Shown here: positions 4,041 through 55,762 of the stretch, piece after piece
Layout: each line of letters starts with the position of its first letter
Numbering within the stretch: position 1 is the first letter of the stretch
Assembly (NCBI GenBank): GCA_026874595.1
Contig: CM049307.1
Span: forward strand, 35,506,862 to 35,570,861
DNA length: 64,000 nucleotides
Reading direction: 5' to 3'
Source of the DNA: Sipunculus nudus
Lineage: Eukaryota; Annelida; Sipuncula; Golfingiida; Sipunculidae
Made by a program: the position numbers and the translations under genes
The notes under the pieces: model-generated
Told to the model about the DNA's origin: nothing
What the model saw: the letters and a program-made list of their open reading frames with translations, nothing else
Databases searched by the model: none

Positions 4041-7000
4041 CATGCCCGAAGGGTTAGGGTAACCCGTATCCCGGATATAGCACATATTAATAATGGCAAA
4101 CATCTACTGGGGTAATTCATGCCCGTATCAATAATGACAAACACTTACAAGAGTATTTCATGCCCGAAGGGTTAGGGTAACCCGCATCCCGGATACAGCA
4201 TATATTAATAATGACAAACACTTACAAGAGTATTTTATTCCAAAAGGGTTTGGGTAACCCGTAACCCGGATATAGCACATATTAATAATGACATACATCT
4301 ACTGGAGTATATCATGCCCGAAGGGTTAAGGAAACCCGTATCCCGGATATAGCGTATATGAATAGTTACAAACACTTGTTGGAGTATTTTATTCCCGAAG
4401 GGTTTGGGTAACCCGTATACCGGATATAGCATATATCTAAAGTGACAAACACTTACTGGAGTATTTCATGCCGGAAGGGTTAGGGTAACCCCTATCCCGG
4501 ATATAACATATATTGATAGTGACAAAACCTTACATGAGTATTTCATGCTTGAAGGGTTAGGGTAACCCGTATCCTGGATATAGCATATATTAATAGTGAC
4601 ACACACAGGAGTATTTCATGCCCGAAGGGTTAGGGTAACCCGCATCACGGATACAGCATATATCAATAGGGACAACAACTTACTGGATTATTTCATGCCG
4701 TAGGGTAAGGGTAACCCGTATCCCGGATATAGCACATATCAATATGGACAACAACCTAGTGGATTATTTCATGCCCGAAGGGTTAGGGTAACCCGTATCC
4801 CGGATATAGCACATATTAATAATGGCAAACATCGATACTGGGGTATTTCATGCCCGAAGCGTTAGGGTAACCCGTATCCCCGATATAGTATAAATCAATA
4901 GGGACAAAAATTACTTGATTATTTCATGCCCGAAGGGTTAGGGTAACCCGTATCCCGGGTATAGCACGTATCAATAATGACAAACAATTACTGGAGTATT
5001 TCATGCCCGAAGGGTTAGGGTGACCCGTATCCCGGATATAGCATATATTAATATAACAAACACTTACAGGAGTATATTATTCCCGAAGGGTTTGGGTAAC
5101 CCGTATCCCGGATATAGCATATATCAATAGTGACAAACACTTACTGTAGTATTTCATGCCCGAAGGGTTAGGGTAACCCGTATCCTGGATATAGCATATA
5201 AAAATAGTGACACACACTTACAGGAGTATTTCATGCCCAAAGGGTTAGGGTAACCCGCATCCCGGATACAGCATATATCAGTAGGGACAACAACTTACTG
5301 GATTATTTCATGACCGAAGGGTTAGGGTAACCCGTATCCCGGATATAGCAAATATCAATAGGGACAACAACTTACTGGATTATTTCATGCCCGAAGGGTT
5401 AGGGTAAACCGTATCCCGGATATAGCACATATTAATAATGGCAAACATCTAATGGGGTAATTCATGCCCGAAGCGTTAGGGTAACCCGTATCCCCGATAT
5501 AGCATAAAACCCGTATCCCGGGTATAGCCCGTATCAATAATGACAAACAATTACTGGAGTATTTCATGCCCGAAGGGTTAGGGTAACCCGTATCCTGGAT
5601 ATAGCATATATTAATAGTGACACACACTTACTGGAGTATTTTATGCCCGAAGGGTTTGGGTAACCCGCATCCCGGATACAGCTTATATTAATAATGACAA
5701 ACACTTACAAGAGTATTTTATTCCCAAAGGGTTTGGGTAACCCGTAACCCGGATATAGCACATATTAATAATGACAAACATCTACTGGAGTATATCATGC
5801 CCGAAGGGTTAAGGAAACCCGTATCCCGGATATAGCATATATGAATAGTTACAAACACTTGTTGGAGTATTTTATTCCCGAAGGGTTTGGGTAACCCGTA
5901 TAACGGATATAGAATATATCTATAGTGACAAACACTTACTGGAGTATTTCCTGCCGGAAGGGTTAGGGTAACCCCAATCCTGGATATAACATATATTGAT
6001 AGTGACAAAACCTTACGGGAGTATTTCATGCCTGAAGGGTTAGGGTAACCAGTATCCTGGATATAGCATATATTAATAGTGACACACACAGGAGTATTTC
6101 ATGCCCGACGGGTTAGGGTAACCCGCATCACGGATACAGCATATATCAATAGGGACAACAACTTACTGGATTATTTCATGCCGAAGGGTTAGGGTAACCC
6201 GTATCCCGGGTATAGCACATATCAATATGGACAACAACCTAGTGGATTATTTCATGCCCGAAGGGTGAGGGGGAACCCGTATCCCGGATATAGCACATTT
6301 TAATAATGGCAAACATCGATACTTGGGTATTTCATGCCCGAAGCGTTAGGGTAACCCGTATCCCCGATATAGTATAAATCAATAGGGACAATAAATTACT
6401 TGATTATTTCATGCCCGAAGGGTTAGGGTAACCCGTATCCCGGGTATAGCACGTATCAATAATGACAAACAATTACTGGAGTATTTCATGCCCGAAGGGT
6501 TAGGGTGACCCGTATCCCGGATAAAGCACGTATTAATAATGACAAACATTTACTGGAGTATTTCATGCCCGGAGGGTTAAGGTAACCAGTATCCCGGATA
6601 TAGCATATATATTAATATAACAAACACTTACAGGAGTATATTATTCCCGAAGGGTTTGGGTAACCCGTATCCCGGATATAGCATAAATCAATAGTGACAA
6701 ACACTTACTGTAGTATTTCATGCCCGAAGGGTTAGGGTAATCCCTATCCCGGATATAGCATATATTGATAGTGACAAACACTTACGGGAGTATTTCATGC
6801 TCGAAGGGTTTAGGGTAACCCGTAACCCGGATATAGCATATATCAATAGTGACAAACACTTACAGGAGTATATTATTCCCGAAGGGTTTGGGTAACCCGT
6901 ATCCTGGATATAGCATATATTAATAGTGACACACACTTACTGGAGTATTTCATGCCCGAAGGGTTAGGGTAACCCGCATCCCGGATACAGCATATATTAA

Positions 7001-8474
7001 TAATGACAAATACTTACAAGAGATTTTATTCCCAAAGGGTTTGGGTAACCCGTAACCCGGATATAGCATATATCAATAGTGACAAACACTTACTGGAGTA
7101 TTTCATGCCCGAAGGGTTATGGTAACCCCTATCCCGGGTATAGCATATATTGATAGTGACAAACACTTACAGGAGTATTTCATGCCCGAAGGGTTAGGGT
7201 AACCCGTATCCTGGATATAGCATATATTAATAGTGACAAACACTTACAGGAGTATTTCTTGCCCGAGATTTAGTGTAACCCGTATCCCCGATATAGCATA
7301 TATTAATAGCGACAAACATTCGAGCTTTTCACGCCGCGTGGGTTACGGTAACCTGTGTCACGGATATAGCATATATGAATAGTCACAAACACTAACTGGA
7401 GTATTTCATACCCGCTGGGTAACGTAGACCCGTTTACTGCATATAGCGTATATTAATAGTGACAAATACCAATAGGAGTATTTCATGCCCGAGGGGTTAG
7501 GGTAACCCTTATCCTGGATACAGCATATATTAATAGCGACAAATATTCGAGCTTTTCACGCCGCGTGGGTTATGGTAACCTGTGTCACGGATATAGCATA
7601 TATGAATAGTCACAAACACTAACTGGAGTATTACATACCCGCTGGGTAACGTAGACTCGTTTACTGCATATAGCATATATGAATAGTCACAAACACTTAC
7701 TGGAGCATTTCATACCCGATGGGTTACGTTAACCCGTATCCTGGATATAGCGTATATTAATAGTGACAAATACTTACAGGAGGATTTCATGCCCGAAGGG
7801 TCAGGGTTACCCGTATCCCTGATATAGCATACATAATAGTGACAAACACTTACTGGAGTATTTCATGTCCGAAGGGTTAGGGTAACCCGTATACCGGATA
7901 TAGCCTATATTAAAACTGACAAACACTTACTTGAGTATTTCATGCCCGAAGGGTTGGCGTAACCAGTATCCCGGATATAGCATATATTAATAGTGACACA
8001 CACTTACTGGAGTATTTCATGCCCGAAGGGTTAGGGTAACCCGCATCCCGGATACAGCATATAATAATAATGACAAACACTTACAAGAGTATTTTATTCC
8101 CAAAGGGTTTGGGTAACCCGTAACCCGGCAAATAGCATATATCAATAGTGACAAAGACTTACTGGAGTATTTCATGCCCGAAGGGTTAGGGTAACCCCTA
8201 TCCCGGATATAGCATATATTGATAGTGACAAACACTTACAGGGTAACCCGTATCCCCGATTTAGCATAAAACCCGTATCCCGGGTATAGCACATATCAAT
8301 AATGACAAACACTTACTGGAGCATTTCAAGCCTGAAAGGTTAGGGTAACCCGTATCCCTGATATAGCATATATTAATAGTCACAAACACTTACTGGAGTA
8401 TGTCATGCCCGAAAGGTTAGGGTAACCCGTATACCGGATATAGCATATATTAAAACTGACAAACACTTACTTGA
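4041..8474 (+). repeat. 77-bp satellite array, about 57 units
   Basis: Tandem array with a unit of about 77 bp, measured between successive CATGCCCGAAGGG starts (for example 4925 to 5002). Each unit holds GGGTTAGGGTAACCC, a palindrome with 6-bp arms that contains the animal telomere word TTAGGG, then CCCGTATCCCGGATATAGCA, then an AT-rich half ending CACTTACTGGAGTATTT. Units vary by substitution and small indels. The section 4150-5170 is closely matched by 5633-6735 at an offset of about 1484 bp, including a shared private ATCGATAC insertion at 4831 and 6314, which shows higher-order duplication. The short open frames across it are read-through of the repeat and not genes. Confidence 0.95.
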
Positions 8475-8684: not shown

Positions 8685-10235
8685 TGGCCGCTCTCTGTCC
8701 ACTCCCCCTGGCGGCAGTCTTGGCAACTGTTAAGGTAGCAAATAGCTGCTATTTGCGCGTGCGATTCGTTGGGCCCTCTCTGTCTGGCCGCTCTCATATC
8801 CACTCCCCCTGGCGGCAGTCTTGACACTTTTATGGTAGCAAATAGCTGCTATTTGCGCTTGCGACTCATGGGGGCCTCTCTATCTGGCCGCTCTCATATC
8901 CACTCCCCCTGGCGGCTGTCTTGACACTTTTATGGTAGCAAATAGCTGCTATTTGCGCTTGCGACTCATGGGGGCCTCTCTGTCTGGCCGCTGTCATATC
9001 TACTCCCCCTGGCGGCAGTCTTAGCAACTTTTAAGGTAGCAAATAGCTGCTATTTGCGCTTGCGATTCACGGGGCCTCCTCTGGCCGCCCGCTCTGTGTC
9101 CACTCCTCCTGGCGGCAGTCTTGACCCTTTTTATGGTAGCAAATAGCTGCTATTTGCGCGTGCGATTCATGGGGCCCCTGTGGCAGTCCTGTCTCTAGTC
9201 CACTCCCCCTTGCGGCAATCTTAACTCTCAATGCGATGCTACCAGAAATTTTACACCCTCCTAAATTTTTTAGGGTAGCAAATAGCTGCTATTTGCGCGT
9301 GCGATTCATGGGGCCCTTCTGTCTGCCCGCTCTCATGTACACTCCCCCTGGCGGCAGTCTTAACACTCAATGCGATGCTACTATATATTTAACCCCTCCT
9401 AAATTTTTTAGGGTAGCAAATAGCTGCTATTTGCGCGTGCGATTCATGGGGCCCCTGTGGTAGTCCTGTCTCTAGTCCACTCCCCCTGGCGGCAATCATA
9501 ACTCTCAATGCGATGCTACCAGAAATTTACCCCTCTTAATTTTTTTAGGGTCGCAAATAGCTGCTATTTGCGCTTGCGATTCTTGGGGCCCCTCTGTCTG
9601 CCCGCTCTCATGTACACTCCCCCTGGCGGCAGTCTTAACACTCAATGCGATGCTACTACATATTGAACCCCTCCTAAATTTTTTAGGGTAGCAAATAGCA
9701 GCTATTTGCGCGTGCAATTCATTGGGCCGCTGTGGCAGGCTTTGAGATCTCCACTCCCCCTGGTGGCAGTCTTAACACTCCATGCGCTGCTACTATTATT
9801 TTACTTCCTCCTAATTTTTAGGGTAGCAAATAGCTGCTATTTGCGCGTGCGATTCATAGGGCCTCTGTGGCAGTCCTGTCTCTTGTCCACTCCCTCTGGC
9901 GGCAATCTTAACTCTCAATGCGATGCTACCAGAAATTTTACCCCCTCCTCAATTTTTTAGGGTAGCAAATAGCTGCTATTTGCGCGTGCGATTCATGGGG
10001 GCCCCTCTGTCTACCCGCACTCATGTCCACTCCCCCTGGCGGCAATCTTAACTCTCAATGCGATGCTACCAGAAATTTTACCCCCTCCTAAATTTTTTGG
10101 GTCGCAAATAGCTGCTATTTGCGTGTGCGATTCATGGGGCCCCAGTGGCTGGCCGCTCTCATTTCACTCCCCCTGCCGGCAACCTTAACATTAATGCGAT
10201 GCTTCTATAAATTTTATCCCCTCCCAATTTTTTGT
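8685..10235 (+). repeat. Satellite with 19-bp palindrome; 100- and 138-bp units
   Basis: Twelve copies of GCAAATAGCTGCTATTTGC (9-bp arms around one base) start at 8738, 8838, 8938, 9039, 9139, 9278, 9416, 9553, 9691, 9826, 9965 and 10104. The first spacings are about 100 bp and the later ones 135-139 bp. The longer form contains an extra block of about 38 bp with CTCAATGCGATGCTAC and a pyrimidine-rich run. Every unit also holds CACTCCCCCTGGCGGC. The copy at 9691 has the central base changed from T to A. No coding role is seen. Confidence 0.95.
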
Positions 10236-13200
10236 AGGGTACTACAGGCTGCCAAAGCTTCCAGCAACCCCCCCCCCCCCCGGCACTAATGAGAAACTGC
10301 CTGCGAAAAATCGAAAAGTCCCATAAGCTTAACTACAGGCCGCTACCGAAAACCGACAGTTCCCCGCCTATCTCATGTTGACCTTGTTGACCTTTCATCA
10401 GATTATGCATGCTTGAGCGAAGCATACACTGGGGCAGCCAGGCAGCTAATGCCCAGCCACAGTTGATCCAGGTGTCCAACCCAACTCATCTAGTAGTTGT
10501 TTTGAAAAACAACATAACAATAAACAATAAATTAATAATTTTGTATTTTTTTTTATAACAAATTAAAGAAAAATTAATAGAAAAGGAATTTGTTAGTTGA
10601 TGAGTAACAGAAAATTAACTTGCAGTTACTGATGATGCAAGAATCTTGTATGGATGGATAGAATGTCAATGTCAATTTTATTCCAAATAACACCATGCAG
10701 TCACCTATGGTATTTTTCAGTGAAATTTTAATGATAAAAAAATAAATCATATTATTCATTACTATTCATAAGGGATCATATGAAGGAAATTAATGATAGA
10801 CAAAGATGCAGTTGATAATATTAATCTAGATTCCTACTGTGTCTAGTGTGTAGATTGATGTGAAAGTAGTCCAAAGTGAATATGTTACATTTATTTTTTT
10901 TTTTAATATAAATAAAAGCCATAAAACCAGGTACTTATGATCATTATTTAAATTGGTGAATTTTGTATATTCTGGATTCTCAACATCTTTGTTTGGCTAA
11001 AACTGAATAAATACTAGACATGGTGCAAATGCTTTGCAAATGTATTTGAATACGAATATGAATATGTACTGCATTAAAAAATTTTATTCCATAAGAATGG
11101 GAATTGAGGTAAAAATGAAAGTATTTGAATACCAGTGCAGATACTTTCAGAATTTATTCATGAATGCATTCATGAATATATTCTACAATATTATTTCAAT
11201 AATCATTTCAATTATATTTTATTTAAAAAAATCATGATTTTATTATTATTATTTCTTTAATAAAAATTATATTGGCACAATATTTGTTATTAAATTTTGA
11301 TAAAAAGTTAAACTTTTTTATAATATGTGCTGCTTATAAGTTATATGGCCAAGTCAAAATCTGTGTGACAGTAGCACTCCATTTGTTAATAAAATAAATG
11401 AAATCAATCCTCTTCCCTGTCTCCAAAGATACTATCAAAATCATATATAAGCTAAACACCAACAACTCATAATAAAGCTTATATTTATTACCACACAAAA
11501 CAAGCATGTGCCTCTTTCCCAAATCATATTTTTGTCATATATAACAGCTGAGCGCCGTGACCCATGGGTCCCTTGTTTCTTGTGTGGCAGTGATACGAAG
11601 ACTTTAAATGAGTATGATATAAAAGAATCACTGTGACAAAACTTTTATGACGTAAAAACATCGAATACCTTCACCATTTAACATAAATCTCATGATTTTG
11701 TCTTCATTGCTTGGTTGATTACTTGGTTGGTTTGTCTGTTCGCAACTTTTAATTTAAGTCCAAATAAGTGTTGTGAACAAGGTATCACCAAAGCAAAACA
11801 TCGTTAAATGCACATGAAATTCAAAATTTGGAGGTAATATGGATAGCTAAAATGTTTTTTTTGTAAGGATTCTTTATCATTGTGTTGGGATACCTGTGTA
11901 TTTCTAACAGCCAAGATAGAGAACCATTCACCAGTATTAGGGGCGGCCTTCCTTCTGGGGGGCTGAGCTGACCCGTGCTGCAACCAGTTATACATGGGTG
12001 AAGTGTGTAACAGACACCAGTTTGCCCTTGGATTAATATGTTTCCTCAGTATGTTGGCCTTAAGAAGCTTTTACCAAGTTTCATAGTGATTCTTGTAAAA
12101 TTTGGAATATTTGTGGAGGTAATTACTGTTTTGTGGTCTTTAACTACTTTCCAGTTAATATTAATGTAATTTCCCTGATTTTCATAAATAATATTGAAAA
12201 CTGTCATATTTTTTTTATTAATTTTATGAAGGAAACCTTTTTTTTAAGTTAAATACTAAATTTTGTGGCGTTATGGTGTTGCAAAATATATTTAAACAAC
12301 TAACAGTTTATAGGTAGACCTTTAGGATACCTGGTCTAAGTATGTATAAAAGAAATATAGAAAACAAAGCCTACACATATAGATAAAGTAGTGAGCATAT
12401 TTACTAGTGTTATTTATTGATGCTTGTATAATCAGCTATTCTTTCCAGAAAGTCGCACCAGTATAATATTAATTTTATTTCTTATATATTTTATCATACA
12501 TCTTATGCATATTTCAAAATAATTGCTATGTTAAAAGGAGAAATATATATTAGAATAAACCAAAATGATGTATAACATTCATTCCTAAGTGGTTCCTCAA
12601 ATGTGCATTTTCAGTGTATGTCTGTAAATCTTTTATATTTTATAATATTTAATGCATTGTCTCTCTGCATATATTTATATGAAATACATGTAAAGTGAAA
12701 TTCATACTTATATCAAGATTATAATTGGGTCCAGATTAATTTCAGTTGTTCACCAGAATATTCAGATATAACTTTATTATTTCTATGTAATAATTTTTAT
12801 TTTGTCCATTAATCATTGCATCTCATTCTGTATGGACTAACAAAATGAATTATTCATGTGTCTTTAAAAGGAATTTTTGGTTAATATGTGCATTAAGACT
12901 GAATAACACATGTGACTGATCTACCTGGCCTTAAGATAATGGTAAATCCTTTTAGTGTGCATCACTCAATAGTAGCTACACATTGACTTTTCAGTGCTTC
13001 ATTACCATTTCTTTGATATGCAGTGTGGTATATGGACCAGTGAAGCTGATTATGATGTGGCATATGTAATTTTATATGACCAAAACTATTAAATCTGACG
13101 CAGCCTAATTAGTCCAGAGTGGCTCATTAGTATTCTTTATCAGATACAAGACACCTGGAGTTAGAATGTGGCTTCTGTAGCTAATCACTTGTTAGTTGTA

Positions 13201-13875
13201 TAGAGACTGTTGACGTCTGTTGGTAATTATTAAAAATTAACATTAATTTAAGGGAAGGTTTGATTTCTCTGAAAGATTACTGAAATTATTTATAAACAGG
13301 AAATTTAAATGAAATAAAGTTCACTCAGGAAATGTCATGTAAACTCTTTCATCCACTGATGTTAGAAGCATATGTGAGAACTCAATTAAACAAAATTAAA
13401 CCAAATTTGTAATGAAAATTTTGGCCAAAATTTCTGCAATAATAAAAAAATATTTTCACTTATAATTATAATTTATGGCTGGTTGCAGCCATTGAGTGTT
13501 TTTAAACCATATGCCAGCTGGTATTGAAAGCAGGGGGCTTATTTTAACAATATGTGTGTAACCCCTCCAGCCCCCCCCCCCCCCCCCCCCCCGGCAGGAA
13601 GGTGCTAGCTAGACTAGCATACCCCATGAGGTAGAATTTCTAGGATTACTCTAAAAAAACTGATTTATATACATAATCACTCCAGAGACCCTTATTCAGT
13701 AAATATAAATTGATCAAAAATATTTTAAGGCATAGTGCTTTTAACAGAAAAACATTTAAATACACTCAAACATGAAAATATTGTAACTTCCTTGTCTTCT
13801 CATTTCTTCATAATAAGCTGGATGTGCAGTATATCTGCAGACTTGCATGATTTGAAAATGCTCTTGTCATTTCAG
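10236..13875. other. Upstream flank/intron of STUB1, no exon found
   Basis: AT-rich sequence with C tracts at about 10267-10281 and 13568-13592. The first STUB1 exon (start codon and first half of TPR1) would be expected here or further left, but no stretch giving the family's GN-LF...Y--A pattern was recognised. At 11545-11577 a CAGCTGAGCGCCGTGAC phrase matches one at 39506, a dispersed repeat end. Confidence 0.4.
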
Positions 13876-14074
13876 GTTAAGAACCCATCTGTAGCAACAT
13901 TTTTCACCAACCGTGCATTATGTTATCTGAAGACAAAGAATTGGGAACTAGCCTGCCAGGATTGTCGAAGGGCTCTAGAAATGGACACCATGCTGGTTAA
14001 AGGGCATTTCTTTTTGGGACAAGCACTAGCAGAAATGAATTTGTACGATGAAGCTATAGCCAGTTTTAAAAGAG
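13876..14074 (+). CDS. STUB1: STUB1 exon 2 (TPR domain)
   Basis: Acceptor TTTCAG before 13876 and donor GTCAGT after 14074; starts in phase 0 and ends with one extra base. It encodes the TPR core, including [17 protein letters not shown] and the HFFLGQA helix. The chain begins VKNPSV, equivalent to the point where vertebrate CHIP exon 2 begins. Confidence 0.95.
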
Positions 14075-17000
14075 GTCAGTACTTAGAAGTGTTCAGGACT
14101 TTACTTATATAGTACTATATATTGTCAGATAAATTTTTATGCTAAAATAAGGAAATGAAGGTTTCACAGTTTAATCTTTTTGATGTTTGATGGGTGATAA
14201 ATATAAAAACAAATCCAATTAATTTCTACATTCTTTTATGTATGGTATAAGGGCATAACAATCAAAGGGAAGCTACAAAACAAATTGCTAAATTATTGGA
14301 GTGTCCTGATAAGAAGTCCTTATTTTCATTGATACAGTAATACTCACATCAAATTGCCACAATGGCCATGATTAATTATTTTATTTGTTTTTTTTGTAAA
14401 CAAAACCAAACTCATCTTATGATTTTGAGATAACTTTTCCTGCACAAGCACAACCAAGGCAAATACGTAAAAAATACATGCTCATTCTGAGGAGTGAGAT
14501 TAATGGTCTCATTTCATGGTGTATTGTGCTCTCCTCTGTAGCATATGACCTTGCAAAAGAACAGAAGCTGAATTTTGGTGACGATGTGGCAGCAGCTCTC
14601 AGGAATGCAAAAAAAAGGAGATGGGGTGCCATCGAGGAGAAACGGGTACAGCAGGAGATAGAACTACAGACATATATCAACAGACTCATCACAGAAGATA
14701 GAGATAGGTAGGAATGGCCATAGGCAGAATGCACCTAGGACTACTACATTTTGATTATATAATAACTTGTAGATCATGGATAGTTTTATGCATGAACAGC
14801 CCATTGGTGACACATACAGGTTATATCATTTATTTTAAAAACAGCAGGAAAACTCGAATTATTTGATTCCTTTTAAATCGTGTATGCATATGGGTTTAGG
14901 TAATAATTCAGAGTCTTTTCAAACTTAGGTCATGGCTGGGACTAGCAGGGTAACTGTGCCCTATATTTATATCTGTTTTGAGTAAACGTGACTCAGAAGA
15001 TTTTAGGAATGGCCCCACTGATTGTTCTATATTTGGTATGCTTGTTGATCCATGATAGTTTTGGATTTTGCGTAAAATGTGGTGCCATCTAAAACATAAT
15101 CTACAGTAAATTGAAAAGATTTCTCACAGAATGGTTCATTGAAATATTTGTAAATTAAGAGTGCCCATTGGTCTTAGGTAACATGTTCCATAGTAAAGGA
15201 CCCATAGCTTTACCTTTAGTCCCATTTTCACAGAATTTCAATCCGATTTCTCAGGAACAGTTTCATTGATAGCTGTTGTGGTCATTGTACTGGACTGTGT
15301 TATCTGTTGAACAAGGTTTGTAGTGTCATCTTTTCAAAAGATATTATTGCAGACTTCCTGGATGTACTTTATGTATTGTTCTTTAGTTTGGTGTGACCAT
15401 TGATTAGGACTTAAATGGCCAATCTACAGTTCCCTTTTATTTTCATATGCCCATCTGTGACAGGACATATTATGGTATACCAACTGTCTGTCCCTTATGT
15501 CTGTCTGTCAGTTAACTGAAAGTGTCACTGCAATAACTTACCAGGCCTTTTATGAGTTTTCACAAAACTCACTGTAACTACGGACTAGTAGATTATCTTG
15601 CTCAAGTTCGATTATGGGCAAAGTCCACACATATTTAATGAGGTCGGAGGTCACCAGACTTTGGTAGTGCCATGATGACTTTACAATTGTATGGATTTTC
15701 ATGAAAGGTATTGTAAATATTTACATTACAGTTTTTTTCCTGATTTAGATTCTCAGCAAAATTCGCATATTTAATCAGACAAATTAGACCAGAAGTCATT
15801 AATATACAACAGGCATATGTAGTATTATGCACCCTTCAGGTTCTCTTTGTTATATGATTTTCTTTGCACATTAAAACAGTATCAGGGGAACTACAAGAGG
15901 AACTTGACAGACAAATTTATTGCCAGACATGGCTAATTTAATATAAGTTATTATTATATGTTATTTAACACTTTAACAGGCAGCTGCACACAGTACAAGA
16001 GTTGGTAGGGGAATCAGAGGACACAACAAATGAGCAAGAATCTATAGAAACAGAATATGTAAGTAAAATATGTACATCAGAACTTCCGAAATAAAATGTA
16101 ACAGGCTTTTACACTGGATAATATAAATAAATAAAGAGTCCAAGTGACTGTCAGATGTTTGGTTATCATGAGGATGATCATATGATTTCTACATTACTTA
16201 AATTTCTCAAGAACTAATAATATATTACACATTTGAATATTTCAAGCAGGTTTAAACATTGACAGTCCTGAGTCAGTGCTGATCACCATTAAAACATCTG
16301 TTATTACTAATATTAGAAATTTACTGGAAGGATATTTAAAATGAATCAAGCTTGAAAACCATGTAAGAAGTTCATGTTTGTTGTTAGGTAAATCATGTTA
16401 ATAGAAGGGGGGTCTTATACACAGAGCTACTAAGCATAACATGAGTGAAAGGTGCTTGTTGTTAGTTGATCAAACATGGTCCTCATCAAGTATGTGGTAT
16501 CAATAATTGTTTTGTTGAATAAATAAATGAAAAGAATTTGAAATTTTATGTATAAAGATATAATATAAGTCAGACATATTATTTGGTAAAATTTAGATGA
16601 AAAACAAGTTCATTATTCTAAAATGGCTGGACTTGGGCGGGCTGCTACTATGTTTCAAATTGGTACAATTTACAGATCCGGGAACTGATGTTTTATATTT
16701 CAAAAGACAAATGTTAATTAGCACTTATTCGTTTCATCTACACTCTACAAAACCAATTTTGTTTAATTTTCGTATACCTGTTGCTTTTGGGCCATAGCTT
16801 TCACACATTGCTTTAGTTAGTTCTAGCAAACTAAAATTAATACAATTAGTTTATATCTAATACAGATTTTGCACCTTTTTTAATTTTCAGCAAAAGAGGT
16901 TAATGCAAGTCAATGAAATATTTGCTCAGGTGGATGAAAGACGACAGGTAAAATTCTTTGGTTGTTCAAGATGTAATTGTAGAAACATATCAGTGATTGT

Positions 17001-28180: not shown

Positions 28181-29245
28181 TCATATATGGTTTTCATCAC
28201 TCACAGTCATTCTTTTGTTGCCCTCTTCACTGGAAGGTAACGCCATCGGTGTTTGGTAATGACCTTCACATTTAAGGCACGAAAACATTTCTAAGAACTC
28301 TTTCCTGAATCGTCTGCTGCTGAGGACGTACAGTCCCAGGTTACTGCAGTAGGTGATTGTGCCGACCAGGTTGATGATACTCTCCGCGAACACCATGCCG
28401 TTAGTGCGATCCCATTGGAATACTTGTTCCAACACGTAGTAAATCGCATTGGGAGTCGTGCAGACGATATAGGACAAGCAGATAACGAGGGCAGTCAGTG
28501 TGAAGGTTTCTGTTTGTTTCTCATTCTTACCTTTTGCTGTGGCGTTTGTCATCCCCCGGCGCTTACGCTCTGCCTTTGCTAGGTTTATGATCAGAATGGT
28601 ATTGCAAATGGTTAGAACAACAAAAGGCAAAATACTGTATAAAGTTATCATTAACCAAGGGGCCACGTAAGAGGCATAGAAACGATGTCCGGGAAAAGAT
28701 TTACAACCTTCCTCTCCCAGTCCGTATGCCCAAAGTCTATCACAATTGATAGCCGCGGCCACAAAGAGGACAACCGCGCTGGTGATAGTAGCCTTTCTTC
28801 TAGAATTCCATCGACTGGCTTGCAGAGGTCTGACCACGGCCAACACCCGCTCAATAGCAACCACCATCAGTGTGAAGGAGGAATAGTAGATGGCCACCAA
28901 GAAGAAAAACCGGAACAATCGACAGCTTACGTCTGAAATCAGCTTCAGCTGCAGTTTAAACACGGCCTGTAGCCAGTTTTCTAGGGTGTCCATGAAAAGG
29001 ACGACAGTATCGGATACAGCAATGGTCGTGAAGTAGACGCTTACCGTGCATGCACGAACATTGGGGCGGCGCATTAGTAACACGATCAAGATGTTGCTCA
29101 CCACCCCAGCCACAAACACGATGGGCAAGACGTACAAATTGATGATGTCACTTGCAACCAGGTACTCATCTGTGCTTCCTTGCCCTTGACTGCCGGCTGA
29201 TGAACCCGCACTATTCTGGTGGCCACTGTCGTCAATGAAAGTACA
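28181..29245 (-). CDS. Rhodopsin-class GPCR, orphan, probable peptide-type (partial 5')
   Basis: The open frame codes for 354 residues ending in TGA at 28183-28181. No in-frame ATG precedes TM1 and a stop lies 5' of about 29257, so the start codon is probably in an upstream exon; the acceptor may be the AG before 29245, or an AG slightly further in. Seven hydrophobic segments are present. Landmarks (numbered from 29245): Asn51 in TM1, Asp79 in TM2, the disulfide pair Cys108 and Cys181, Pro207 in TM5, and a basic third loop KAERKRR. Several signatures are altered: DRY is ERV (132-134), the TM4 Trp is absent, CWxP in TM6 is CTTP (262-265), and NPxxY in TM7 is NLGLY (292-296). It would act at the plasma membrane through G proteins; the ligand is unknown. 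The overall look fits the large lophotrochozoan set of FMRFamide/peptide-type orphan receptors. The first ATG is inside TM1, so any shorter start would destroy the fold. Confidence 0.88.
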   Translation of the reverse strand, partial: CTFIDDSGHQNSAGSSAGSQGQGSTDEYLVASDIINLYVLPIVFVAGVVSNILIVLLMRRPNVRACTVSVYFTTIAVSDTVVLFMDTLENWLQAVFKLQLKLISDVSCRLFRFFFLVAIYYSSFTLMVVAIERVLAVVRPLQASRWNSRRKATITSAVVLFVAAAINCDRLWAYGLGEEGCKSFPGHRFYASYVAPWLMITLYSILPFVVLTICNTILIINLAKAERKRRGMTNATAKGKNEKQTETFTLTALVICLSYIVCTTPNAIYYVLEQVFQWDRTNGMVFAESIINLVGTITYCSNLGLYVLSSRRFRKEFLEMFSCLKCEGHYQTPMALPSSEEGNKRMTVSDENHI

Positions 29246-29449
29246 CTTTTTTAAATAAGATTAAGATTAAAAAAATAAAAGTTCAGATATTTTTAATATT
29301 CAGTTTCTAAACAAGGAAGAAGCATGGTAGATAACAGAGACTAGATATTAGGTCACCAAAAGAAGACTACCTTTTAGAGAATGTCTAATATAAAAAGAAG
29401 AGAGATAAGGTGCATGTACATTTGTCATTTGATAGTAAACTACGTTACT
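29246..29449. other. Upstream region or intron of the GPCR
   Basis: A pyrimidine-rich stretch on the minus strand next to 29245 is compatible with a splice acceptor. No upstream exon was recognised before the transposon boundary at 29450. Confidence 0.35.
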
Positions 29450-46681: not shown

Positions 46682-47989
46682 TGATTCGCCTGGGTAGGTA
46701 CCGGTAATCAAAGATTAGACAACGTTTATAAGCGCGTTTAATGTGGTAAAGTAGTGATGATGTGGTTTTTGATGGCGCACTCATCGTATTTGCACTCAGG
46801 TACACAAGAAATCACAAGGCAGTGGTTAAGCAACAATGAATATATTAACAGGAAATAACAGAATTCAAAACCACTGACCAGATAGGGTTACCTCCCTTTT
46901 AAATACCCTTTTACCCTGGAGGTTCATCCACATTCACAAGTCTCATACAATGCCTGGGACCCGCTTTCACCTGAGGCTCATCTTTATACACAAGCACGCT
47001 TAATACTGAAAAGGCTGGGAACAATACTAACTCGACTCGAAACACCAGGTGACCCGTACTGAATGCCCCTATTGTCTCCGCCTGCCCTGGCCGGCGCACC
47101 GACTCACCTCACAACAAATACAACAAAAGTTTACAGCTGATTCCCAAGAATTTGTCAGTAACTATGAAAAGTTTTAACTGTTATGATTTTGTCAGTATCT
47201 ATGCATAACTTTGGTATAATGCCAGGAATGGGTGCAGCGCTGTGGAATAACTAATCTACAGACATATTATCAACCAAAACTAAATCTGCTTTCTGTTCCA
47301 TTACACAACTTTGCATTTGGGCTGTACATAGGCCTTGTTCTCGGTAGGTTTCGTAAAGTATGTGGTTAAAAATAAAGAACTCCTAAATAATAATGTTTAC
47401 TTATTCATTTGTGTTTTCTGGAGGTATATTCTTAATGTGTTTGTTAAATTGTTCAAGTACGAAGGGTCGCTAGGTAACAACAACAAAAACTTTAATTTCG
47501 GACATTTGTTATTAAATAGTCTACGGCCATTATACTTAACATCAGAGTGCCTTTACATCCTGCATTGAGGACCTCACTGTAAGGCGCTATGATGATGCAA
47601 ATATTTTCTTCATTTTTGAAAATGCCTTAAGGCCTTCGAGTATGCTGTCTCTTGACGTAAACCAGGCCAATTGTTAGCGTTTTTACTATACTTTCTAACA
47701 ACACCTGCCACATGCCAGAAAAGAAATCCGTTTTAACTAAGTTTTTTGATAAATCCCTCTGCATAATTGTAAAAGTTCTGACCATGCACAAGAATACAAT
47801 TATGCATGTACTCACAAGAGCTAATGAACGATAGCCAAATTGAACGCAAAAACAAGAAATGATTAGTTACAATAGAGACGGTTTTTCAGTGTGGCATGTT
47901 AGTTTACATTTATGTTATCTTTTGTGTTAATTCATCACTCGTAGCCTAATGCAGAGGGTATCGGCTGTTTACCATGGTATCAATGCAAC
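46682..47989. other. Intergenic flank of LINE insertion
   Basis: No supported gene. 47949-47989 supplies the apparent first codons of the LINE ORF1 but is host flank. Confidence 0.4.
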
Positions 47990-48719
47990 AATCGTATGGC
48001 TTGGCTTCGGAGATCAACCTCTGTGTAGAAACTGCAGACAACCAGGTCACTGGGCATCAAATTGTGAAAAACCTCAAGTCTGTGCAGTATGTAAATCTGA
48101 ATCACATACTGAAGAGGCAACAGAGTGTGAAGCCTTTGAGGATAACCACGACAGGGTCTCATCTGTCTATAATGCTAAAACCCCGCTATCTGTGTTTCAT
48201 TCGGAGGATTTCCCGGTCTTTGGGTTAGAGTTTGGGTCTGTTGAGCAGGCCTTTCAATACACAAGGGCGATTAGATCCGGGAGACTGGATATTTCAACAA
48301 AAATAAAAGAGGCCAAAAAACCTTCTGATATAAAGAGCTTGTCCGCTCAGGTTAAGTCCGATTCGGACTGGGAAGGCCAGAAAGACAGGGTTATGAAAGA
48401 AATCCTGACTGCCAAGTTAAACCAGAGTGAAGAATTTCGTGATGCACTACAAGAAAGTGAAACAAGAATTCTCATAAACCCAAAGGTGAACGACCTATAC
48501 TGGGGAACAGGAATGAATTATGAAGTGACCGCAATCACCAAACCAAACCGATGGCCAGGGAAAAATGTCAACGGATCAATCCTTATGGCGCTACGAGATG
48601 ATTTGCGTACAGAGGAGCCTGAGACTGTAAGTAAAAGAAAACAACCTCCACGGTCAAGTAGAGATAAATCGCCCAACATTCAAGCCTTCTTCCACAAAAA
48701 ACCACCCAGAAAAAGATGA
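47949..48719 (+). CDS. LINE ORF1: CCHC zinc knuckles + NADAR domain (5' truncated)
   Basis: 256 codons are open, but the target duplication puts the element's first base at 48004, so about the first 18 residues are host sequence read in frame by chance. C26/C29/H34/C39 form a CX2CX4HX4C knuckle, and C45/C48/H53/C60 a second looser one, the usual nucleic-acid-binding part of a LINE ORF1. Residues of about 78-218 match the NADAR (YbiA-like) fold: an LSVFHSEDFPV start, FGSVEQAFQYTRA with the conserved Glu at 99, W141, VMKEILTAKLNQ, YWGTG at 184-188, and GKNVNGSILMALR. NADAR enzymes hydrolyse ADP-ribose-type N-glycosidic bonds, including ADP-ribose attached to guanine. A basic tail follows, ending SPNIQAFF then KKPPRKR. 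The N-terminal part of ORF1 is missing. The role of NADAR in the retroelement is unknown; removal of ADP-ribose from element nucleic acid is a hypothesis. Confidence 0.85.
   Translation: MQRVSAVYHGINATIVWLGFGDQPLCRNCRQPGHWASNCEKPQVCAVCKSESHTEEATECEAFEDNHDRVSSVYNAKTPLSVFHSEDFPVFGLEFGSVEQAFQYTRAIRSGRLDISTKIKEAKKPSDIKSLSAQVKSDSDWEGQKDRVMKEILTAKLNQSEEFRDALQESETRILINPKVNDLYWGTGMNYEVTAITKPNRWPGKNVNGSILMALRDDLRTEEPETVSKRKQPPRSSRDKSPNIQAFFHKKPPRKR
47991..48003. repeat. 13-bp target-site duplication, left
   Basis: ATCGTATGGCTTG, repeated exactly at 52629-52641 right after the A-rich tail. Confidence 0.9.
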
Positions 48720-48721
48720 GA

Positions 48722-49005
48722 ATGGGGCCTTTTATAAGATGTATGTCTTTTAACATACGAGGACTGAATGATTATATGAAAAGAAAAAAACTGTATCTGT
48801 GGATGAAAGATAATAATATAGATATAACATTTTTACAAGAGACATTTTGTACCAAATCCAAAAAAAATATATATAATTCTAATTGGTATTGACAAATATT
48901 TCACTATTGTAGTGAAAGTCAACATAGCAGAGGTGTAGCTATAGCTTTGGGTAGGAATTTTGAATATAGTCTAATTAATTATGTTTGTGATAACGATGGT
49001 AGGCT
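48722..49005 (+). pseudogene. LINE ORF2, endonuclease N-terminal part (broken)
   Basis: The ATG lies 2 nt after the ORF1 stop. It reads MSFNIRGLND and DITFLQET, the first APE-endonuclease motifs, then meets TGA at 48890-48892 where the frame should continue, and goes on in the same frame through SRGVAIALG to DNDGRL at about 49005. A deletion then removes the expected stretch before YAPND and changes frame. Confidence 0.85.
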
Positions 49006-50034
49006 TATGCACCAAACGATGAAAATAGCAAACGCAATTTTTATAGGCACGCTCTTAAATGGATATTTCAACACACAGTAAACGAAAAAAATCTAATAAT
49101 TGCTGGCGATTTTAATTGTCACCTACGTCAATGTGACAAAACTACTGATGGAGAAAAGAAAGATAAAAGTCGTATTGAATTTCTTAATATTACCAGAAAG
49201 CTAGATCTACAAGATGTCTTTCAATTGAAACATGGTAAATTAGCAATAGATTTCTCATATGAGAGGGGTACTGAATATAAAAGCAGATTAGATTATATTT
49301 TTATGAATGGAAGATTTGAAATAGTAGAATGTGTTCATAAATATTTAGTATCTGATCGTAGGACATCAAGTTTATCAGATCACAAAGCCGTTATAATGAA
49401 ATGTTGTATTTATCCATATAAAAGAGGGCCCAACTACTGGAAATTAAATGCCAACTTGCTAAGAAATCCTATTTATATTGAAGGTATGACAAAAATTTTA
49501 AGGGTAGAAAAGGAACAATATTTACAGAGTTCCTCAAAAATAAATTTTTGGGAAGAGTTGAAAAGAAAGATTAAGCAATATTCTATAGAGTTTTCAATAG
49601 ATATGTGTAAAGGAGACAGAAGTAAATTAAAACAATTAGAAAATCGGATCATGATCCTAAAAAATAAAAACGAAAATCTTAAAAATAAGATAAAAATTGA
49701 AAACTTGCAAAAAGAGATTGATGAAATATATGAATCAAGGGCTGCAGGTGCAAAAATCAGGTCTCGTGTAAAATGGTGGGAAGAAGGAGAGAAAAATTCT
49801 TCTTACTTTCTCAGACTGGAGACACAAAAACAAATGTCAAATGCAATTTATGAGCTTGAATTAAATGGAGAAAAACTAAAAACTGATGATGAAATTTTGA
49901 GTGGAATATGTACGTTTTATGAAAAATTATACTCCGACGATAATATTGACAAAAGCAAAACGCATAATTTTATGAATGAAGTAAAGATAACCCGATTATT
50001 ATCAGAACCTGAAAAAGAATCGTTGGAAGTATAA
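49006..50034 (+). pseudogene. LINE ORF2, endonuclease C-terminal part and linker (broken)
   Basis: It resumes at YAPNDE (49006), then NLIIAGDFNC with the catalytic-site Asp/Asn, RLDYIFMNG and SLSDHKAVIM with the terminal Ser-Asp-His of APE nucleases. A long charged linker with coiled-coil-like Lys/Glu heptads follows, and WWEEGEKNSSYFLRLE, typical of the region before the RT domain. The frame closes at TAA 50032-50034, caused by a lost base just before it. Confidence 0.88.
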
Positions 50035-50240
50035 TTACAGACGAGGAATGTCAAAATATTATTAAAAATCTGAAGGAAAATAGGAGTCCCGGACTAGATG
50101 GCCTGAATCAAGAATTTTATAAACTATTCTGGCCGTATCTAAAAGATTACTATTTAGGTATGATAAACGAAGTGTATAGCTGTGGTAAAATGGGGTATAC
50201 TATGAGACAGGCGGTGATAATGCTTGTTTTTAAAAAAAGG
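50031..50240 (+). pseudogene. LINE ORF2, RT fingers in a third frame
   Basis: The continuation in another frame: IITDEECQNIIKNLKENRSP, then GLDGLNQEFYKLFW, the conserved start of L1-type reverse transcriptase. It shifts again inside the A7 run at about 50231-50238, most simply by one extra A. Confidence 0.85.
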
Positions 50241-52446
50241 AAGCCGTTCAGATTTGGTTAATTATCGCCCAATCAGCATTACAAACTCTGATTATAAAAT
50301 ATTAGCTTTTGTACTAGCGAAGAGACTCCAAAATATTATACAAAAAATAGTTTCAAAAGAACAAACCGCCTATATAAAAGGACGATACATTGGAACAAAT
50401 GTAAGATATGTATTAGATTATATCGAATTTTGCGAGAAGTATAATAAAAAAGGACTGATTTGTTGTCTCGATTTTTCTAAAGCTTTTGATAGTTTAAATA
50501 TTGATTTCCTACTAAAATGTCTACGTAAGTTTAATTTTGGCAATTCTTTTATTAAATGGGTGGAAATATTTTACAATAGCCCTATTTTTACCGTTAAAAA
50601 CAATGGGTGGCTTACCAAAACACTAACGATGGGAAAAGGAATCCGGCAAGGATGCCCGATTTCTGCTTTACTATTTATTATAGCCACGGAAATTCTATCT
50701 TGTAATATTAAGCAAGATCCAAATATTTCAAGCATTATCCTACCTAACAAAGATAAATGCTCCCCCATACTTCAGTATGCGGATGACACGGCGTTGTTAT
50801 TAAATAACCACATTTCCTTGAAACATGCGTTAAAGCAAGTAAATAAATTTGGTGAAGTATCCGGACTTCAACTGAATCTGAGGAAAACAGAAGGAATCTT
50901 ACTGGGACAGCTACAAAAATGTGATCATAATACAGAAAAATTTGAAATAAATTTTTCTGATAAACCGATTAAATATCTTGGAATTCATATTTCTCACGAT
51001 ATAAAATCCAGTACAAACTATCACTGGGAAAAAAAAATTGAATCAATAGAAAATAAGTTTTGTTCTTGGAAACAACGAAATTTATCTATGAAAGGAAAAA
51101 TTATTTTATTAAAATCATTTGGATTATCTACTTTAACAATGTCACTCTCAGTTATGACTGTACCTAAAAATATTATAATCAGAATAAAAAGGATGTTCTT
51201 TGGGTTTATATGGAAATCAACAGAACGTATCCGGAGAAACACGTTAATTGCAGATTACGAAGATGGTGGTCTACGCATGGTTGATTTAGAATTATATGAA
51301 AAAGCGTTAAAAGCAGCATGGGTGCAAAAATTATTTAGTAAAACCGGTCAAATAAACCCAATAGGGAAGTTCTATGTTAATCAGGTGTGCAAAAACATTC
51401 AATTACTGCTTCATGGTAATTATGAAATTGGCCATGTACCAGAACTGAACGAATTGCCAGTATTCTACAGAGAAATGTTATGTAATTTTAGCCAATGTCA
51501 AACGAAATCTGATATTCGCTATATGAGCAGTAATCAATTCCTAAAACAACAAATATGGTTAAACAAGAACTTTATGTTCCATGGCAAATGCTTATATTTT
51601 AAAAACTGGTTAGATGCAGGGATAATACATGTAAAAGATTTATATGATGAAAACGGAATATTGATTAATGAACGAAATATTTTACATAAATTACGAAAAA
51701 CAACAGATTGGATCAGGGAATACTATATTATAAGGAATGTCTTTAAGAGATATAATGAAATATTTGAATGTGAAAATGCTCAGTATTGTCATGGAAGGCT
51801 GACTCATAAATATACTATAGACAAAGTGTGTATAGATCTGATGCAAATTAATTCAAAAGCAATATACAAAATCTTTGTTAAGAAGCAAACTGTTCAACCT
51901 TTATCAAAAAGTAAATGGATTAAATCATTTGGATTAGATAAGGATACTTTTTGTTTCAGAGATATATACATACGCAAAGTACAGCGAGAACCGATCGCTA
52001 GATTAGCGGACTTCAATTATAAATTATTACAAGATTTATTGGTTACAAATTCATCATTGTTCAAGTGGAAAAGGAGTATATCTGATAATTGTGAGTTGTG
52101 TAATGTCAAAGAGGATGTTGAACATATGCTCTATACGTGTTGTTTAAACAAATGCATTTGGAGAAAATTTGAAACCTGTTTTAAATGTAAATTGAGTTGG
52201 AAGATATTTGTGGTAGGATATTCATCGGAAAATCATTTCTTGAACTGTATTGAAGAGAGTATATCTTTTATTATGTGGTCACTGTACAAGTTCAAAATCA
52301 AGTGTAAAATGAAAGATATCTATCCTTCTGCAGAGGGATTGATTGGATATATACAGTATGATTTAAAAAGTTATCTAAACACAAGATTTGTAAAGAAGTA
52401 TAAAGAAAAACAAGTGAAATTAGGCCAGCTGTTTGATATGTTGTAA
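50224..52446 (+). CDS. LINE ORF2 reverse transcriptase and C-terminal region (longest intact frame)
   Basis: 740 codons. The real sequence joins at about 50237, so the first few codons are out of frame. RT motifs appear in order: NYRPISITNSDYKI, QTAYIKGR, CLDFSKAFDSL (metal-binding Asp), GIRQGCPIS, QYADDTALLL with the catalytic Asp pair at about 186-187, SGLQLNLRKTE, and KYLGIHIS. Residues of about 623-639 give CX2CX7HX4C, the C-terminal zinc motif of L1-type proteins. The enzyme would copy element RNA at a nicked target. The segment itself looks undamaged, but it lacks a start codon and is cut off from its endonuclease by frameshifts, so it is treated as non-functional in this copy. Confidence 0.93.
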   Translation: MFLKKGSRSDLVNYRPISITNSDYKILAFVLAKRLQNIIQKIVSKEQTAYIKGRYIGTNVRYVLDYIEFCEKYNKKGLICCLDFSKAFDSLNIDFLLKCLRKFNFGNSFIKWVEIFYNSPIFTVKNNGWLTKTLTMGKGIRQGCPISALLFIIATEILSCNIKQDPNISSIILPNKDKCSPILQYADDTALLLNNHISLKHALKQVNKFGEVSGLQLNLRKTEGILLGQLQKCDHNTEKFEINFSDKPIKYLGIHISHDIKSSTNYHWEKKIESIENKFCSWKQRNLSMKGKIILLKSFGLSTLTMSLSVMTVPKNIIIRIKRMFFGFIWKSTERIRRNTLIADYEDGGLRMVDLELYEKALKAAWVQKLFSKTGQINPIGKFYVNQVCKNIQLLLHGNYEIGHVPELNELPVFYREMLCNFSQCQTKSDIRYMSSNQFLKQQIWLNKNFMFHGKCLYFKNWLDAGIIHVKDLYDENGILINERNILHKLRKTTDWIREYYIIRNVFKRYNEIFECENAQYCHGRLTHKYTIDKVCIDLMQINSKAIYKIFVKKQTVQPLSKSKWIKSFGLDKDTFCFRDIYIRKVQREPIARLADFNYKLLQDLLVTNSSLFKWKRSISDNCELCNVKEDVEHMLYTCCLNKCIWRKFETCFKCKLSWKIFVVGYSSENHFLNCIEESISFIMWSLYKFKIKCKMKDIYPSAEGLIGYIQYDLKSYLNTRFVKKYKEKQVKLGQLFDML

Positions 52447-52576
52447 AGATAAAGATATATTGCACACTGCATGTAAGTCCTTATAAATATATGTTATGTC
52501 TATCCACTTCCTTTACCTGCCGGGGGAAGATTGGAGTAATGGAAATGGCAGAATGGAAATGAATAAAGATATTTAA

Positions 52577-52628
52577 AAAATAAAAAAAAAATAAAAATAA
52601 AAAAAAAAATTAAAAAAAAAAAAAAAAA
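52577..52628 (+). repeat. A-rich LINE tail
   Basis: About 50 nt of A with occasional T, ending exactly at the second copy of the target duplication. Confidence 0.92.
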
Positions 52629-52641
52629 ATCGTATGGCTTG
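52629..52641. repeat. 13-bp target-site duplication, right
   Basis: ATCGTATGGCTTG following the A-rich tail. Confidence 0.9.
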
Positions 52642-53355: not shown

Positions 53356-53597
53356 CGGAGCCCGGGAGACGACATGGTGTAAATATTTATCATTTCGTGC
53401 GCACGAATTACTAATCCGTGCGCACGAATTACTAATCCGTGCGCACAAATTACTTATTCGTGGCCACGAATTACTAATCCGTGCGCACGAATTACTAGGT
53501 GTGAAAAAAAAATATATTTCTAAGGTGGGAAAAATATTTCTTAATTCGTGCGCACGAATTAATAAATATTTTTCACCATGTCGTCTCCCGGGCTCCG
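53356..53597. mobile_element. TA-flanked MITE with palindromic 21-bp units, copy 1
   Basis: Perfect 24-bp terminal inverted repeats beginning CGGAGCCCGGGAGACGAC, with TA on both outer sides (53354-53355, 53598-53599). The interior has about six units built on the palindrome AATTCGTGCGCACGAATT, spaced 21 bp, and a GGTGTGAAAAA...CTAAGGTGGGAA segment. No transposase. TA flanks fit a Tc1/mariner-like or related family. Confidence 0.88.
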
Positions 53598-53874: not shown

Positions 53875-54194
53875 AGTAATTCGTCCGCACGAATTAATAA
53901 CTCGTGCGCACGAATTAGTAGCCAATGAGCATTGAGCCAGCAACATAAGAGAGCTGTTTTCATTGGTCACTAATTCGTGCGCACGGATTAGTAATTCGTG
54001 CGCACGTATATATATATATTTCTTCCACCTTGGAAATATATTTTTCACACCTAGTAATTCGTGCGCACGGATTAGTAATTCGTGGCCACGAATTTGTAAT
54101 TCGTGAGCACGGATTAGTAATTGGTGCGCACAGATTAGCAATTCGTGCGCACGAATTAATAAATATTTTTCACCATGTCGTCTCCCGGGCTCCG
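53875..54194. mobile_element. Same MITE family, copy 2 (left end lost)
   Basis: The right terminal repeat is intact at 54171-54194 with TA after it; no matching left terminus was found. It contains two groups of 21-bp palindromic units and the CCACCTTGGAAATATATTTT segment (54025-54044), inverted relative to copy 1. Confidence 0.8.
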
Positions 54195-55351: not shown

Positions 55352-55762
55352 TAAATATTTTTCCACCTTGGAAATATATTTTTCACACCTAGTAATTCAT
55401 GCGCAGGGATTAGTAATGCGTGGCCACGAATTAGTAATTCGTGCGCAGGGATTAGTAATTCGTGGCCACGAATTAGTAATTCGTGCGCACGGATTAGTAA
55501 TTCGTGCGCATGGATTAGTAATTCGTACGCACGGGTTCGTAATTCGTGGCCACGAATTAGTAATTCGTGCGCAGGATTAGTAATTCATGGCCACGAATTA
55601 GTAATTCGTGCGCACGGATTAGTAATTCGTGTGCATGGATTAGTAATTCGTACGCACGGGTTCGTAATTCGTGGCCACGAATTAGTAATTCGTGCGTACG
55701 GATTATTAATTCGTGCGCACGAATTAATAAATATATTTCACGATGTCGTCTCCCGGGCTCCG
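55352..55762. mobile_element. Same MITE family, copy 3, expanded 21-bp array
   Basis: CCACCTTGGAAATATATTTT leads into about 16 units of 21 bp (55388-55735) and then the right terminus ending at 55762, followed by TA. Units alternate GTGCGCAC, GTGGCCAC, GTGTGCAT and GTACGCAC cores, and a block of about five units recurs (about 55450-55565 and 55570-55685), showing higher-order duplication. One terminal base differs from the other copies. No left terminus. Confidence 0.85.

Follow-up and report, generated by a model that had tools for sequence, protein, structure and literature searches.

A NADAR domain in ORF1 of a LINE insertion

The window analysed here is a 64,000-nucleotide stretch of Sipunculus nudus contig CM049307.1. 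It contains a long interspersed nuclear element (LINE) whose RNA-binding protein, the product of its first open reading frame (ORF1), includes a NADAR domain. Domains of this type are known to take ADP-ribose off guanine. Bases 48004–52627 (+) are one LINE insertion, recognised by its target-site duplication, tail and coding content. The insertion is 5'-truncated and has an A-rich 3' tail. The left target-site duplication, AATCGTATGGCTTG (47990–48003), shows exact 14-bp identity with the right one (52628–52641), which lies directly after the tail. The truncation point is inside ORF1; the frame runs on upstream to an ATG at 47949, this upstream part being flanking DNA. The remaining part of ORF1 (48004–48719, +) has 237 codons from 48006 and is open until a TGA (48717–48719), where the ORF1 stop and the ORF2 start overlap in an ATGA (48716–48719, +).

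ORF2 is broken in and just past its endonuclease part. Specifically, the endonuclease region (48716–50034, +) is interrupted in frame by a stop after about 58 codons and also by changes of frame, and matches an apurinic/apyrimidinic endonuclease (APE)-type domain at 49003–50031 (Exo_endo_phos_2, E = 8e-7). The reverse transcriptase (RT) and C-terminal zinc region follow at 50224–52446 (+; RVT_1, E = 2.2e-36), the zinc match being weak (zf-RVT, 4.3e-5, under the curated cut-off). The closest solved RT is that of human L1 ORF2p (4e-45), followed by the next distinct entry, 8gh6 (3.3e-15), while entries named R2 match at 2.4e-9 or weaker. The APE-type endonuclease, the L1-like RT, the target-site duplication and the 3' A tail characterise the element as an L1/Tx1-type LINE, the Tx1 label being given by analogy with PMC12477816. 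There are no further ORF1 or ORF2 copies in the window (tblastn, E <= 1); a tblastn of P0002 on the window gives one weak match elsewhere in it (E 0.49). Domestication of the window copy was considered and is unsupported: the ORF1 fragment, unlike ORF2, is free of stops and frame changes, but by our estimate chance seems able to account for this contrast at the lengths concerned.

The ORF1 fragment is the C-terminal half of the protein. It begins with a zinc knuckle of the form CX2CX4HX4C (48024–48065, +; Pfam zf-CCHC, residues 7–20 of the 237-residue fragment), continues with a variant knuckle, CX2CX4HX6C (48081–48128, +), and then contains the NADAR domain (48189–48608, +; residues 62–201). 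The match to the NADAR/YbiA superfamily PF08719 scores 97.6 bits against a gathering score of 35.1, the domain has the YbiA fold, and the pocket Glu, Trp, Asp and Trp are all present (E80, W122, D163 and W166). The closest full-length relative among those modelled has the putative layout RRM-RRM-CCHC-NADAR-basic tail. The RRMs are assigned from a single AlphaFold model (P0007), whose structural matches have modest Z-scores, because the matches of profile A5 to the PDB are insignificant (best 0.093; RRM proteins 0.19 and 0.62). A preliminary description, made from the letters alone, had proposed a NADAR domain fused to a LINE ORF1; both the domain identity and the LINE setting are borne out.

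The NADAR pocket is altered at the hydrolytic positions

A 3-sequence profile recovered 57 proteins, the largest of their clusters having 52 members. The combination of one or more knuckles with NADAR, or of the N-terminal part with NADAR, is common to 28 homologous proteins, so the fusion is not confined to one copy. Seven pocket positions, numbered according to P. nicotianae NADAR (8bau), are readable in 29 ORF1-type proteins, namely 26 of the 57, the window protein, P0058 and P0060. The other 31 of the 57 were set aside (20 fragments and 11 not of this ORF1 type), and P0043, which belongs to the set, stops just past the last pocket position.

The pocket is split into a strictly conserved ligand-facing core and replaced groups for guanine-ADP-ribose hydrolysis, which we regard as the most useful new fact. 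E43, W89, K93 and W133 are present in 29/29 proteins and D130 in 28/29. All five rank in the top 11 of 152 columns by conservation, and none of 100000 random five-column sets is equally conserved. The two hydrolytic positions, E125 and K50 (D171 and K95 of E. coli C7 NADAR), rank 40 and 68. K50 is replaced in 27/29 proteins, by Ala or Ser in 20, by Arg in 5 and by His in 2, and is Lys in the remaining 2; the set-aside fragments, where readable, mostly have Ala, with Lys in P0051. E125 remains Glu in 24 proteins; the five that have lost it (Ser in 3, Asn in 1, Thr in 1) are exactly the members of the window clade. Across the family the K50/E125 pairs are K/E, A/E, S/E, H/E, R/N, R/S and R/T.

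In the window protein, the pocket Glu is kept (E80, equivalent to E43; 48243–48245, +), Arg87 occupies the site of the phosphate-binding K50 (48264–48266, +) and Asn158 that of the catalytic acid (48477–48479, +), where the four other clade members have Ser or Thr. A catalytically competent guanine-ADP-ribose hydrolase is expected to carry Glu, Asp or, in phage, His at the acid position and Lys at K50/K95; the window has neither the acid nor the Lys. In control NADARs from viral sequences and genome contigs, E125 is Glu in 142/151. K50 is Lys in 28/28 viral control loci outside the K-containing search pattern; for the 71 genome-contig controls and the 52 viral controls that match this pattern, Lys at K50 is circular.

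Family history

The tree has 43 rows, 28 ORF1-type proteins (P0026 left out) and 15 others, and excludes the two trait columns, K50 and E125. The window clade is supported (100/99) and groups with P0027, P0058 and P0060 (96/92), which retain E125. At least five changes are needed at K50, of which one is Ala to Ser and one is due to the long-branched P0043; at least two are needed at E125, the one outside the window clade being P0039 (His). This placement indicates that the acid was lost within the family, on the window's own branch, and that the lysine was probably lost in more than one branch. A single origin of the 28 ORF1 rows is not rejected (approximately unbiased test, p-AU 0.449). One NADAR capture may account for them, with P0039 possibly inside the group.

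Mean identity in the window clade is 0.59 for NADAR, 0.63 for the N-terminal part and 0.35 for the tail; the corresponding values in the other clade are 0.55, 0.49 and 0.24. The NADAR domain is conserved close to or above the level of the N-terminal part, which speaks for continuing selection and against decay. NADAR belongs durably to this ORF1 protein, and the fusion extends beyond one copy in both spread and age. One protein, P0064, has 40% identity to the N-terminal part over 97% of the query and has no NADAR match.

The tail contains a short motif in otherwise variable sequence (48671–48716). In the window it is IQAFF (48678–48692, +), within the basic C-terminal tail, and the model has a helix at 225–229 with a predicted local distance difference test (pLDDT) score of about 70. 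I/V-x-x-F-F plus basic residues is found in 5/5 window-clade proteins, and P[LM][LI]x[DGSN][FMCL][FLM] plus basic residues in 17/17 proteins of the other clade that were put in; P0027 and P0058 do not have the motif. The pattern was written after inspecting the sequences and covers 24 proteins, with P0011 and P0017 of the other clade left out; the tail of P0017 does not show the motif. Its spacing resembles that of PCNA-binding PIP boxes, without the Gln.

Two proteins outside this layout were also observed. P0048 has a probable coiled coil and an N-terminal part that looks L1-ORF1-like but gains no confirmation from sequence searches of Pfam and the PDB. These are joined to a NADAR in which both K50 and E125 are kept, and the protein is possibly an independent NADAR capture by another LINE type. 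In P0039, NADAR precedes a region resembling GDSL/SGNH hydrolases (Lipase_GDSL_2, 2.5e-5, below the curated cut-off). LINE ORF1s with esterase domains are known, and P0039 may be another retroelement fusion.

No relatives were confirmed in IMG/VR with the window protein or the ORF1-clade profiles, and a three-row profile found six relatives there at 26–33% identity. A viral fold library gives 47 matches at E <= 0.001; phage, giant-virus and RNA-virus NADARs are all among them, and no group stands out as especially close.

Comparison with known systems

The preliminary description knew of no account of such a fusion. One exists: Repbase searches in PMC12477816 (2025) led to the statement that ORF1s of several Crassostrea gigas Tx1 LINEs 'also appear to constitute' NADAR domains, with RNA processing suggested. 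The fusion is therefore not new, being known in print as an aside. The C. gigas elements are similar to the window element in having a NADAR-like domain, termed YbiA-family, in an L1/Tx1-type ORF1. The passages concerned give no residue analysis or family history. Literature searches on NADAR or Tx1 ORF1 with retroelements, whose scope left out most subscription journals, gave no other description of a NADAR–retroelement fusion or of the residue pattern among the matches listed.

The same source reports a conserved NADAR domain in a retrotransposon of Ectocarpus. There, however, the element is a Gypsy long terminal repeat element and the domain is in Pol, not ORF1; its blastp matches are stated to be almost exclusively bacterial, which makes a separate capture likely (PMC12477816). 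Caenorhabditis elegans SNA-3 also has NADAR domains that work with RNA, in RNA processing, and one of its three domains is described as being without the key residues, but it is a nematode-specific trans-splicing factor and no retroelement (PMC9303266). Some RNA viruses are, like the LINE, RNA-based parasites of invertebrates with a NADAR domain, but theirs sits within replicase polyproteins (PMC9503650). The catalytic acid and lysine are both present in E. coli C7 DarT1-NADAR and in P. nicotianae NADAR (8bau; PMC11543638), whereas Asn and Arg take their places in the window domain.

Other features of the window

Just downstream of the LINE are 21-bp tandem repeats of the TAGTAATTCGTGCGCACGGAT type in both orientations (53396–53497, 54052–54162 and 55390–55730). 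Large tandem arrays occupy 4126–8471 and 8685–10241, with 77-bp units (about 56 copies) and 100/137-bp units. An unbroken 359-residue frame at 28184–29260 (−) encodes a rhodopsin-like receptor (7tm_1, 2.1e-21), and an open frame at 13729–14109 (+) has TPR repeats (TPR_1, 1.8e-10) and is perhaps one exon. Rfam gives no match at gathering score across the window.

Discussion

Mutants of E. coli C7 NADAR bear on what the altered positions may mean. According to PMC11543638, D171A and D171N lost efficient guanine-ADP-ribose hydrolysis; K95 is essential, K95R hydrolysing in vitro without rescuing cells; and the effect of E88A in vitro was small. Given these effects, the Asn and Arg that the window has in place of D171 and K95 make loss of the guanine eraser likely in the window clade. 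The window-clade domain is probably no longer a canonical guanine-ADP-ribose hydrolase, and its pocket may bind a ligand or carry out another N-glycosidic reaction. The preliminary description had read the domain as full-looking and suggested an eraser that could be protecting the element's RNA or cDNA from a host or partner ADP-ribosylation defence. Its domain and LINE setting stand, and the fusion is shared by many relatives; an intact de-ADP-ribosylating enzyme is not supported for this element, and the missing catalytic acid weakens the suggested protection for the window clade.

We consider that the domain is a remodelled NADAR kept as a lasting part of ORF1, probably not an eraser, with ligand binding or a changed reaction; the chances for and against this reading are about even. 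The ORF1 NADAR would bind a ligand of nucleotide type, for instance ADP-ribose itself, a related glycoside, or a nucleic-acid end that is ADP-ribosylated or modified in another way; alternatively, it would perform an altered N-glycosidase reaction. Either activity would serve nucleic-acid handling by ORF1. The build of the insertion, the identity of the domain and its fold, its presence in many relatives and the state of each residue are observed; loss of the eraser, retained binding and any part in retrotransposition are inferred. Several points weigh against this reading. The five pocket residues are conserved in the control NADARs as well, so conservation alone cannot tell a reader from an enzyme. 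Nine of the 151 controls also read as having no Glu at E125 (five K, one I, one L and two gaps). The label 'ORF1-type' denotes homology to the window protein; none of the related proteins was observed next to an ORF2. Finally, selection was judged from protein conservation, not from coding-level DNA.

The domain could instead be a structural module that binds no ligand, its NADAR fold having been retained so that ORF1 can pack, form oligomers or contact proteins. Consistent with this, most lineages have lost one or two catalytic groups, and P0064 indicates that such a protein can exist without NADAR. This explanation is nevertheless unlikely. The positions that contact ADP-ribose in 8bau directly or via water, E43, the R93 position and D130 (PMC11543638), are among the most conserved columns, and a pure scaffold would not need them.

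An active eraser, which ranks slightly below the structural module and is likewise unlikely, would free the element's RNA or cDNA of ADP-ribose and so counter a host ADP-ribosylation defence, the altered residues being tolerated or compensated. P0027 and P0043, both ORF1-type, retain K50 and E125. Guanine de-ADP-ribosylation is reported to be conserved in eukaryotic and non-DarT NADARs (PMC11543638), and an anti-ADP-ribosylation role has been proposed for NADARs of annelid and bivalve picornaviruses and of RNA viruses of nematodes, crustaceans and insects (PMC9503650). However, K50 is missing from 27 of the 29 proteins and E125, in addition, from all five window-clade members, both residues are mostly kept in the controls, and acid substitutions abolish efficient activity in C7.

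More doubtful still is a converted eraser turned ADP-ribose reader, which would keep the ORF1 ribonucleoprotein bound to nucleic acid or protein that carries ADP-ribose, such as target nicks marked by PARP; the PIP-like tail might be a second anchor. In this reading at least two lineages would have lost the hydrolase groups differently while keeping the pocket, one by Lys to Ala or Ser, the other by the acid to Asn, Ser or Thr with Lys to Arg. For human L1, a dependence of integration on PARP1 and PARP2 has been reported (PMC8535693). A one-off fusion or accident in the window copy, which is truncated and has a broken ORF2, is rejected as vanishingly improbable in view of the 57-protein family and the 29 ORF1-type proteins of the pocket set.

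If retroelements carry ADP-ribose-processing domains, mobile-element biology would be linked to the reversible ADP-ribosylation of nucleic acids. The natural K50 and E125 variants of the family are ready material for asking whether retroelements need to erase, read or ignore ADP-ribose.
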